A stretch of DNA of 23,369 nucleotides from the IMG/VR virus record IMGVR_UViG_3300031801_000841, positions 1 to 23,369 of that record; one strand, given 5' to 3'. The stretch comes from a virus. The position numbers and the translations under genes are program-made. Below, one piece after another: positions 1 through 9,225 of the stretch (its first letter is position 1; every line of letters starts with the position of its first letter). A model generated the notes under the pieces. The model did no database searches, had not been told where the DNA came from, and saw only the letters and a list, made by a program, of their open reading frames with translations.

Positions 1-180
1 TACTTTATGACCATATTTTGTCAATGACTGAAAACCTTGTTCGTGACGCATTGACCATCCGCCATCATTTTTTGGGCCCACCAAGAGGTATCCAACTTTT
101 ACATTTTCTTTACCTACTAATGAAATACTTGTCGCGACTAAAATTACTGCTCCTACGACTAGAGCTATTATTTTCTTCAT
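1..180 (-). CDS. BMP-family (purine nucleoside-type) periplasmic substrate-binding protein, N-terminal part only
   Basis: Sixty codons are visible before the left edge cuts the gene. Seen: start ATG at 180 with a strong Shine-Dalgarno (AAGGAG, about 6 nt upstream); residues 1-23 form a signal peptide (MKK then a hydrophobic stretch, no lipobox cysteine); mature residues 27-60 contain VGYLLVGPKNDGGWSMRHEQG, the signature start of the BMP/Med family (VGPxxDGGWxxxHxxG). Known: BMP proteins are ABC-transporter receptors; the characterised PnrA/TmpC of Treponema binds purine nucleosides. Inferred: the phage exports this protein to the periplasm of a Gram-negative host to feed a host nucleoside importer, much as phage PstS is thought to do for phosphate. 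It is the last visible gene of the minus-strand run after guaC and gpt, separated from gpt by 161 nt. The family is fairly certain; the ligand is not. Confidence 0.85.
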   Translation of the reverse strand, partial: MKKIIALVVGAVILVATSISLVGKENVKVGYLLVGPKNDGGWSMRHEQGFQSLTKYGHKV

Positions 181-232
181 ATTAATCTCCTTCCGAGATC
201 GAGGTTAAACAACTAACCAACTTGTTAATTGT

Positions 233-240
233 TATAAATA
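233..240 (+). promoter_or_regulatory. T4-type late promoter octamer TATAAATA, plus strand
   Basis: An exact TATAAATA lies in the 161-nt gap between the gpt-like gene and the BMP gene, but it points right, into the 3' end of the gpt-like gene on the opposite strand. No convincing plus-strand gene follows; a 29-codon ORF with ATG at 305 and a GAGG 5 nt upstream is the only candidate. It could be an antisense promoter or a chance match in AT-rich DNA. The rest of this gap holds a short inverted repeat (GGTTA/TAACC at about 213-228) and no terminator that I can see. Confidence 0.4.
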
Positions 241-6852: not shown

Positions 6853-7073
6853 TTATCCAACTTCTCCATAATTAACTTGTTTAATACTTTCTTGATTTCA
6901 TTCAATTCAGCCTTTAACTCATCTTCTACTGCATTAATATGAGCCCAAAGATCTGCAGAAGTATAAACTTTTTCTTGTTCTGGTAAGTCTACATTTTCAG
7001 TAGGGTTGTGATATGTTACTTCTGGTAATTCTCCCATAGTTAATGGGTCTTGTGATTCTGAAAATTCTGCCAT
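6849..7073 (-). CDS. Small acidic hypothetical protein (74 residues)
   Basis: The product has a disordered acidic N-terminal half rich in Pro/Glu (MAEFSESQDPLTMGELPEV) and a heptad-type helix from about residue 42 to the end (WAHINAVEDELKAELNEIKK), which looks like a short coiled coil. It starts one base after the gp55 stop region and overlaps gp47, so its level should follow theirs. No family recognised. Sitting next to a sigma factor, it could be a partner or anti-factor, but there is no direct sequence support. Confidence 0.7.
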   Translation of the reverse strand: MAEFSESQDPLTMGELPEVTYHNPTENVDLPEQEKVYTSADLWAHINAVEDELKAELNEIKKVLNKLIMEKLDK

Positions 7074-7074
7074 T

Positions 7075-7623
7075 TTATACTCTCATGAATAATTCAAGTG
7101 ATGTGGATTTCTTTGGTACTACCTTTTTCTTCGCTTTCTTTGATTCTTCAAAATTATTAATAAATTTATACATATTTACTTTTTGGTCATTAGTCATAGT
7201 TTCAAATACATAATTTTCAGGTTTATCATTAGAAGATATTTCAACATTATCACCAAGAGATGCGTGGTTATCCATAGTTTTATATTTTATATATAATTGT
7301 TTTTTTTCTTTTTGAATTCTTCTGATGAAAGCATAGTAGATAATTTGAGTGAAATATGCAAAAGGATTCTTGGACTTCTCTGGATTAAAATTATTCATGT
7401 ATTGAATACAGTTTTCTATACCATCCGAAATCATCTCTTCTCTAAAGGCGTAATTAATAAAATTAGGTCTAAAGGAAAGTCTTTGAGCTATTTTTAAAAA
7501 ACACTCTCCAATATATTCTGGGCATTGTGGTAATTCTGTAGAATTTTCCTTTGCTTCAGCTATACCCCTTTGAAAATTAACCATTTCCTCAAGAAATTGT
7601 TGATTATCTACATAATTAGCCAT
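7075..7623 (-). CDS. 55: gp55, late-transcription sigma factor
   Basis: From ATG at 7623 the product is 182 residues, almost the same as T4 gp55 (185). Seen: the conserved segment with LKIAQRLSFRPNF, then FREEMISDGIENCIQYMNNF and FAYFTQIIYYAFIRRIQKEK, the sigma region 2-like core that binds the RNA polymerase beta-prime coiled coil and the late -10 octamer. The C-terminal tail (KKVVPKKSTSLELFMRV) ends in a hydrophobic stretch like that by which T4 gp55 contacts the sliding clamp gp45. Start choice: an in-frame ATG at 7680 lies between the -35 and -10 of the promoter at 7660-7688 and has no Shine-Dalgarno, whereas 7623 is preceded by AAAAGGGAAAC. Targets in this window are the TATAAATA octamers. 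Confidence 0.93.
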   Translation of the reverse strand: MANYVDNQQFLEEMVNFQRGIAEAKENSTELPQCPEYIGECFLKIAQRLSFRPNFINYAFREEMISDGIENCIQYMNNFNPEKSKNPFAYFTQIIYYAFIRRIQKEKKQLYIKYKTMDNHASLGDNVEISSNDKPENYVFETMTNDQKVNMYKFINNFEESKKAKKKVVPKKSTSLELFMRV

Positions 7624-7659
7624 GTTTCCCTTTTCTATTTGTAATTTTTGGATAATATA

Positions 7660-7688
7660 ATTATACCACAAAAGTTCCATGTTGTCAA
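7660..7688 (-). promoter_or_regulatory. Perfect sigma-70-type promoter of the gp55-gp46 operon
   Basis: Minus strand: TTGACA (7688-7683), 17 nt, TATAAT (7665-7660), with an extended -10 (TGG directly before TATAAT). Both hexamers match consensus. Predicted start near 7653, giving about a 30-nt leader to the gp55 ATG at 7623. The -35 lies in a small near-palindrome (GTTG-A-CAAC). This should be an early or middle promoter read by unmodified host polymerase, feeding gp55, gp47, gp46 and probably genes downstream. Confidence 0.88.
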
Positions 7689-7711
7689 CCGCAACGTATT
7701 AGAATGACCAC

Positions 7712-7740
7712 TTGACAAACTCTTGACAGTATGGTATAAT
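7712..7740 (+). promoter_or_regulatory. Perfect sigma-70-type promoter pointing into uvsW (antisense)
   Basis: Plus strand: TTGACA (7712-7717), 17 nt, TATAAT (7735-7740), again with TGG before the -10. A second TTGACA (7723-7728) lies inside the spacer as a direct repeat 11 nt away. The predicted start is near 7747, 20 nt before the uvsW stop codon, and transcription would run antisense through uvsW and uvsY. No credible plus-strand gene follows. It is back to back with the promoter at 7660-7688. Confidence 0.75.
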
Positions 7741-7767
7741 GAAGTGTTAACGAAATAGGTAATAATT

Positions 7768-9225
7768 TTATTGTTTTATCTGCACATGAAAATGACTTAC
7801 AGGAAATTTCTCTTCCTTGTATATTTGTATTCTTTCATGATAATGTTCCAACGTATAATTATTTTTTTCTTTAAATTTTAAATCGTCTGCAATGTCATAA
7901 AGTGTTGCTATCTTTTTCCCCTTCAATTTTCTGAGGCCTCGTCCAATACTTTGTAAATTTCTTATACGCGACTTAGAAGGGCTAGAAAAAATGATGTTAG
8001 AAAGATTCCTAATATTGACGCCGACACTATAAACGCCATAACTCGCAACGATAATGGCATTTCTTTCTGACTCCACAACATGCCTAATCTGTTCTCTGGT
8101 GTTTGCATCTGTTCCTCCATAAACGAAGAAGATTCTTCTATTTCCACTTGATCCTTTCTTTATCATATCGTAAAGTATCCGTCCATGTTTTTCTACAAAA
8201 CGAAATAATAAAAGTGTGTTTCCATTCATACTATGTGCTAGATTTACTATAAATTTATTTCTAGCTTCTGATCCTATCAAATATTCAAGTTCTTCTTGAT
8301 AGTTGATATTTTTTAAATCGTAACAAATGGAATCGGGATGTCTTAATACTATGGCATTTATTTGAAATGCTGATAAGTGTTTAGCATCAATAAGTTTTTT
8401 GGTAGATGTTACCTTGTGAACTTTCCCGAATAAACCTTCTAACACTAATTTATGAGTTTGTGTGCCGTCAAGTGTTCCAGTTGTTCCTATTCGATATTTT
8501 GCGTTGATACATTTGGTCATTATAGAGGTAAGAGATCTGGATTTGAAACCGTGAGCTTCATCTCCTATCACAAGTTCATATTGTTCAAAATATTGTTGTT
8601 GCATTTTATAAATTGATTGCCATGTTGAAATGATAACAGGCAATTCAGAACCCTTGTCTCTTCCAGCAACTACAGTATGACAGTTATTTGCTACATCCCA
8701 ACCATATTCTCTAAAATCAGTATACATCTGTGAAACTAGAGATATTGTTGGAACAAGTATTAATGTCTTCAAATTTAAATATCTTACTAGTATATAGATA
8801 ATCAAAGATTTCCCTGAAGCTGTGGGGGATAAGAGTAGTACTCTTTTATTAGAAAGTACATGATTTACAGCATCTATTTGATATGGGCGAGGTTTGATAA
8901 CTTTTGGAAGTTTTAATAAATCAATAAATTCTTGGTTGAGGTCAAATTGTTTGACTTCAAAATCAGATTCAAATTTTACTGTATATCCTCTAAGATATAG
9001 GAATTTACATAAGTGTGGTAGAAGGCCATGATAAAGCATACGATTCATCACATTATACAATCTAATCTTCCCATCCCATAATTTTTTACGGAATGCAGGA
9101 ACAAAGGTATGTCCTGGCACAAGAAAAGTAAAGTAGTCTGAGATTTCCTGAGCAATAGAATGTTCAGTATCAACTCTAATATAAACTTCATTAATCTTGG
9201 TTATGGATACATTAGACGATTCCAC
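7768..9225 (-). CDS. uvsW: UvsW, recombination and branch-migration helicase
   Basis: A 485-residue SF2 helicase collinear with T4 UvsW. N-terminal part: FVPAFRKKLWDGKIRLYN (residues 41-58), matching the FNPRFRYGNWDGRIRL of T4. Helicase motifs: Q-like RPYQIDAV 113-120; Walker A SPTASGKS 133-140; TLILVPT 154-160; DEAH 222-225; TTGTLDG 248-254; motif V near VASYGVYSVGVNI; motif VI QSIGRGLRK near 430-438. UvsW unwinds R-loops and branched intermediates, shutting down origin replication in favour of recombination-dependent replication, and rescues stalled forks. The start is GTG at 9225, overlapping uvsY by 14 nt; ribosome site weak, consistent with translation coupled to uvsY. Confidence 0.95.
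   Translation of the reverse strand: MESSNVSITKINEVYIRVDTEHSIAQEISDYFTFLVPGHTFVPAFRKKLWDGKIRLYNVMNRMLYHGLLPHLCKFLYLRGYTVKFESDFEVKQFDLNQEFIDLLKLPKVIKPRPYQIDAVNHVLSNKRVLLLSPTASGKSLIIYILVRYLNLKTLILVPTISLVSQMYTDFREYGWDVANNCHTVVAGRDKGSELPVIISTWQSIYKMQQQYFEQYELVIGDEAHGFKSRSLTSIMTKCINAKYRIGTTGTLDGTQTHKLVLEGLFGKVHKVTSTKKLIDAKHLSAFQINAIVLRHPDSICYDLKNINYQEELEYLIGSEARNKFIVNLAHSMNGNTLLLFRFVEKHGRILYDMIKKGSSGNRRIFFVYGGTDANTREQIRHVVESERNAIIVASYGVYSVGVNIRNLSNIIFSSPSKSRIRNLQSIGRGLRKLKGKKIATLYDIADDLKFKEKNNYTLEHYHERIQIYKEEKFPVSHFHVQIKQ

Follow-up and report, generated by a model that had tools for sequence, protein, structure and literature searches.

Gene content at the end of the virus record

The window analyzed here is an entire IMG/VR virus record of 23,369 bp, which stops at its bmp side. 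T4-like genes were recognized by profile on the (−) strand (gp17 terminase, gp18 sheath and gp23 capsid), and this strand also encodes gp46/gp47-like SMC and phosphoesterase proteins, a peptide deformylase and a DUF3310 protein. At the left end, the translation of positions 180..1 (MKKIIALVVGAVILVATSISLVGKENVKVGYLLVGPKNDGGWSMRHEQGFQSLTKYGHKV) corresponds to the N-terminal part of a BMP-family receptor, and its frame leaves the record (Table 1). The Pfam and PHROGs searches with this 60-aa fragment alone gave no BMP call, the fragment being too short, and a search of phage records with it gave no match. With a full-length relative (L001) as query, Pfam Bmp (PF02608) was matched over residues 28–323 (E-value 2.5e-46, 158.5 bits vs. 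a cutoff of 24.1). Nearly all loci with relatives that are not truncated by a contig end contain an intact ORF of 352–366 aa (∼359 aa); in one locus (L015) the bmp frame is broken. Because the untruncated relatives are nearly all intact, an early stop or frameshift past the window edge is unlikely, judging from these sequences. The first-pass annotation had proposed a BMP-family gene of 330–380 residues under a strong ribosome site, and the full ORFs of the relatives, the Pfam match and the GAAGGAG sequence bear out this proposal.

Table 1. Positions of features in the window and in related contigs (contig name before the colon; the window where none is given)
Feature	Location	Strand	Basis or remark
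bmp, 5′ part (60 codons), BMP-family periplasmic receptor	1..180	−	Cut by the record end; ORFs of relatives and Pfam
Shine-Dalgarno sequence GAAGGAG	complement of 187..193	−	6 nt ahead of the bmp ATG; sequence reading
T4 late promoter consensus TATAAATA	233-240	+	Between gpt and bmp, aimed into gpt antisense
gpt-like purine phosphoribosyltransferase, 158 aa	342..818	−	PF00156, 4.6e-11; immediately upstream of bmp
guaC, GMP reductase, 336 aa	815..1825	−	NF003470, 468.5 bits vs. cutoff 397; 4-bp overlap with gpt
T4 late promoter motif before structural genes	18705, 16325, 12841	−
AsnRS/AspRS-like catalytic domain protein, 292 aa	L001:10704-11579	−	Opposite the nucleotide genes
Distant BMP lipoprotein form	L048:7983-9137		Adjoins an intein-bearing terminase
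Complete ABC importer behind gpt (NMT1-type receptor, ATPase, BPD_transp_1 permease), then arylsulfotransferase-like gene and start of a terminase-like gene	L233:4384-6884 (+), 6884-7915, 7954-8448
Ammonium transporters	L177:5564-6784, L218:4774-6009, L194:5181-6419, L008, L010		Slot behind gpt or bmp
Isocitrate lyase gene start	L161:4149-4415	+	PF00463, 1.8e-11; directly after gpt; L160 begins the same way

All bmp copies examined have a hydrophobic N-terminus, and the window protein lacks a lipobox cysteine. AxA-like cleavage sites (ALAK, AVAG and ANAK) are present in several other phage copies and none is clear in the N-terminus of the window protein, for which a signal peptide is plausible from its sequence. 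Between gpt and bmp, the T4 late promoter consensus found on the (+) strand may be a chance occurrence; on the (−) strand, the motif precedes several structural genes, and not bmp.

The position of gpt and guaC beside bmp on the same strand, on which the first-pass annotation had built an uptake-plus-salvage reading, was confirmed, and that reading fits. The best NCBIfam match of gpt, the xanthine phosphoribosyltransferase (PRTase) model NF006613, reached 40 bits vs. a cutoff of 138. All NCBIfam scores of gpt are far short of their cutoffs, which leaves its base unproven. A second PRTase-like gene, pyrF (OMP decarboxylase, scoring above the domain cutoff) and a gene for an AsnRS-like protein come after bmp in several phages, a gene for a 2OG dioxygenase whose nearest relative is thymine dioxygenase does so in many, and in some thyX is found near the bmp region. 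The clustering of guaC, gpt, the second PRTase-like gene, pyrF and thyX makes the bmp region a nucleotide-supply island, and from this gene content a pyrimidine link for bmp is possible. The AsnRS/AspRS-like protein recurs in many bmp phages, and its L001 copy scores well below all synthetase cutoffs.

Fold, pocket and predicted ligand of the receptor

By sequence, Brucella 3s99 and AtzT come closest among solved proteins (E ∼1e-62), with nucleoside receptors at 1e-16 or weaker. With 15 close sequences, AlphaFold2 reached pLDDT 68; this model was superseded by one from a 44-row alignment (pLDDT 91, pTM 0.87). The predicted structure has the two-lobed B-cluster receptor fold, and the VIA-align Z scores of the model were 43.8 with AtzT (rmsd 1.9, 324 aligned), 43.4 with 3s99, 35.0 with Lbp and 33.5–33.4 with PnrA. 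Sequence comparison ranks the receptors in the same order.

AtzT binds guanine with a KD of 110 nM and adenine with a KD of 2.5 μM, and other nucleobases poorly (PMC6834077). The pocket was mapped with the guanine contacts of AtzT (PMC6834077), which correspond to phage W42 (Tyr45 in AtzT), S89, F90, E158, N162, W187, T211 (Asn218) and D213 (Asn220). The codon for Trp42, the predicted base-stacking residue, lies in the bmp part of the window, which supplies 60 codons only; all other pocket residues were read from relatives. Among 20 phage copies, W42, S89, F90, E158, N162, W187 and D213 are invariant and T211 is not, and the W42–W187 sandwich with the S89, F90 and E158 base contacts is invariant in the 44 aligned sequences. 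The phage BMP is thus like AtzT and 3s99 in fold (Z ∼44, 38% identity), in its aromatic sandwich and in its Ser/Phe/Glu base contacts. It differs from them by Asp213, Thr211 and Trp42 in place of Asn220, Asn218 and Tyr45, and its gene lies in a phage, where a cognate permease was not found. Given Thr211 and Asp213 at the positions of AtzT Asn218 and Asn220, its specificity may differ.

The nucleoside receptors PnrA/TmpC, Lbp and BmpA/BmpD belong to the same Pfam family and share the fold, but they are only ∼20% identical to the phage BMP, which lacks their lipobox cysteine. A lysine of these receptors (Lys242 in BmpA) stands where it can engage the ribose (PMC13325309). In an alignment with Lbp, the ribose-lysine position, 17 residues past a conserved Asp, is occupied by Phe255 in the phage family.

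A PnrA-type receptor that delivers guanosine, inosine or adenosine to a host importer, the function assigned in the first-pass annotation, would account for the shared family and overall fold and for the Asp beside the ribose lysine, which is kept as Asp238 in the phage protein. The nearest solved relatives, however, bind free bases, the ribose-engaging lysine is replaced by Phe255, the adjoining phosphoribosyltransferase takes bases rather than nucleosides, and a nucleoside phosphorylase or kinase was not seen beside bmp. Sequence, fold and pocket side with the nucleobase binders, so that the PnrA-like assignment is probably wrong, and we consider a nucleoside receptor unlikely.

These data suggest that (i) the phage BMP probably belongs to the nucleobase-binding branch, with AtzT (guanine) and 3s99 (adenine); and (ii) a free purine base is a better prediction of its ligand than a nucleoside, because the nearest relatives bind bases, the AtzT pocket is largely kept and the ribose lysine is Phe255. 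A free base is also made more likely by gpt, since phosphoribosyltransferases of this type likewise use bases. We infer that guanine is the most likely ligand and adenine the second.

Importer partner and host

A search of 20 phage records and of the large 134- and 167-kb records revealed no BPD_transp_2 permease, although any of these records may be incomplete. In the two large records, ABC_tran matched only weakly, to P-loops in frames of ∼556–571 aa, the size of gp46. The bacterial near relatives of the phage receptor are in SAR324. In the single-cell genomes AG-404-P05 and AG-439-L22 and in one MAG (L053, L056 and L058), a receptor 73–75% identical to that of the phages is encoded directly behind two BPD_transp_2 permeases and ahead of a 2OG dioxygenase that is 66–70% related to the one after bmp in many phages. 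This permease-permease-bmp-dioxygenase operon shares the receptor and the bmp-dioxygenase pair with the phages, but it is chromosomal, has its own permeases and is devoid of gpt or guaC beside bmp. Other SAR324 genomes carry a 40–47% identical receptor in the same operon position.

The simplest reading of these operons is that the phage receptor would dock on a SAR324-type BPD_transp_2 importer, which would point to SAR324 as the likely host group. In a first tree, the SAR324 bmp genes fell among the phage copies, yet a single clade of T4-like phage copies was not rejected (p-AU 0.695), so that transfer may have gone in either direction. The gp23 of the window was not found in 41 SAR324-order genomes, an absence that says nothing about the host. 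GMP reductase is reported from pelagimyophages whose predicted host is a deep SAR11 ecotype, and peptide deformylase from all pelagimyophages (PMC7029224). SAR11 is a possible host of the window phage.

On balance, we think it probable that the phage encodes a receptor of the nucleobase-binding BMP branch that joins a purine importer of the SAR324 type and thereby supplies gpt and guaC. The receptor would be made along with the salvage enzymes during infection and exported to the periplasm, where it would bind a free purine base, most likely guanine and secondarily adenine, between two Trp residues. It would then dock on a BPD_transp_2-type ABC importer made by the host; in SAR324, such an importer is encoded beside the 73–75% identical receptor. 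The imported base would be coupled to PRPP by gpt to yield GMP, guaC would turn GMP into IMP, and the products of both would supply and balance purine nucleotides for phage replication. As read from the genes, the route from guanine uptake through GMP and IMP to other purine nucleotides would be coherent. PstS of marine cyanophages is a comparable case, a periplasmic binding protein supplied by the phage that would serve an ABC importer of the host, but it takes phosphate and belongs to a different protein family, whereas salvage enzymes sit beside the phage bmp. The role is known in kind, and the predicted ligand class is new.

The receptor could instead serve the dioxygenase and the second PRTase/pyrF, not gpt, by binding another heterocycle (uracil, thymine, a B6 vitamer or a degradation product). 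This would explain why bmp is paired with the dioxygenase nearest thymine dioxygenase in SAR324 operons and many phages, why pyrF and the second PRTase follow bmp in several phages, why an AtzE-like amidase lies near bmp in SAR324, and why putative B6 transporter subunits are matched, below cutoff, by the SAR324 permeases. Nevertheless, the phage protein keeps all but two of the AtzT purine-contact positions, and pyrimidine bases are poor ligands of AtzT (PMC6834077). Moreover, gpt and guaC are the most constant neighbors of bmp, whereas the dioxygenase is often missing. We therefore hold another heterocycle to be quite unlikely, and prefer a purine base.

Recurrence of bmp and the slot after gpt

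An IMG/VR scan revealed 51 loci with relatives of the window fragment, about a dozen of them 82–92% identical over the fragment. Among 45 close loci, gpt is directly upstream of bmp in 29, and guaC, DUF3310, a 70-aa ORF, peptide deformylase and gp46 are often found around the pair, ordered as in the window. A 134.5-kb record contains, in a single piece, gp18–gp23, uvsW, gp55, gp47, gp46, guaC, gpt and bmp, and a 167.4-kb record contains bmp and gp23 together. The recurrence of bmp beside gpt and guaC, which the first-pass annotation had suggested looking for in other phage genomes, was thus observed in many T4-like contigs. bmp also adjoins gp45 in another type of T4-like phage (L033), and is present in a phage contig without T4-like genes nearby (L029). 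A distant BMP lipoprotein form (28–31% identical) is encoded in a separate phage lineage (L048, and also L046, L047 and L049–L051). Four contigs with close bmp genes (L052, L054, L055 and L057) had been binned as Chloroflexi, Flavobacteriales, Saprospiraceae and Acidimicrobiaceae MAGs. With gpt, guaC or gp17 beside bmp in three and L054 inside the phage clade, they are apparently misbinned phage contigs.

The PHROGs search with full-length bmp relatives assigned no family. INPHARED phages gave only distant matches (≤32% identity), which came mostly from fecal 'Bacteriophage sp.' records lacking annotation and were set aside. BFVD viral structures gave no good full-length match, the best being a BMP-annotated podovirus fragment. 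The terminase profile phrog_2 had 0 matches in 17 records, a result that is uninformative for fragments. A report of BMP receptors in phages was not found in the openly licensed papers searched, which is weak evidence of novelty.

The dN/dS values of close bmp copies were 0.06–0.24 over the full length and 0.06–0.10 over the 60 codons of the window, with mostly silent differences, indicating at the sequence level that bmp is under purifying selection. A host-derived passenger or decoy gene with no role in uptake, e.g. for a surface or signalling protein, would be in keeping with the variable presence of bmp among close phages, but it is rendered very improbable by this selection, by the conserved position of bmp in many divergent phages and by the invariant pocket residues. 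Bacterial DNA misjoined to the left end of the phage contig, a concern of the first-pass annotation that might be prompted by the truncation of bmp at the record end and by the very similar genes in SAR324 chromosomes, is already refuted, to near certainty, by the guaC-gpt-bmp junction repeated in many independent contigs and by bmp and gp23 on the 134- and 167-kb records, and no BMP-type permease was found in the phage records searched. We conclude that bmp is a genuine auxiliary metabolic gene in a family of marine T4-like phages.

With gpt as query, 64 gpt loci were fetched, each with ≥1 kb of sequence downstream. bmp follows gpt in 33 of the 64 loci, 7 of which also have NMT1-type receptor and ABC genes. 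An ammonium transporter is found after gpt in 13 loci (6 of these with a Na/Pi cotransporter-like gene), and NMT1-type ABC genes without bmp in 3; none of the three is present in the remaining 15. ABC sets like that of L233 are found in L190, L192, L207, L208, L220, L231, L232, L027 and L028. The L177 ammonium transporter scores over the cutoff of the marine subtype TIGR03644. Ammonium transporters of phages are known from open-ocean viruses (PMC7174320); like bmp, they are phage nutrient-uptake genes and take up the slot behind gpt in sister phages, but each is a complete transporter on its own, whereas bmp encodes a receptor. The contigs closest to the window by gpt, L160 (92% identical) and L161 (87% identical), have little sequence after gpt, and bmp was not seen in this short stretch.

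A tentative view, to which we give somewhat less than an even chance, is that the slot is an interchangeable nutrient-uptake cassette tied to PRPP-based salvage, in which a nucleobase receptor, an ammonium transporter, a Na/Pi cotransporter-like gene or a complete NMT1-type ABC importer may be placed, with the phages choosing which building block is collected. The BMP, shared with SAR324 operons, would then be the first nucleobase receptor encoded by a phage, and from the periplasm it would redirect an ABC importer of the host.

Phages are known to aid the uptake of phosphate and ammonium by their hosts. If the proposed mechanism is true, marine phages would also scavenge DNA building blocks from seawater or lysed neighbors, beyond the breakdown of host DNA and new synthesis, and a group of uncultured deep-ocean T4-like phages would gain a host link, to SAR324.
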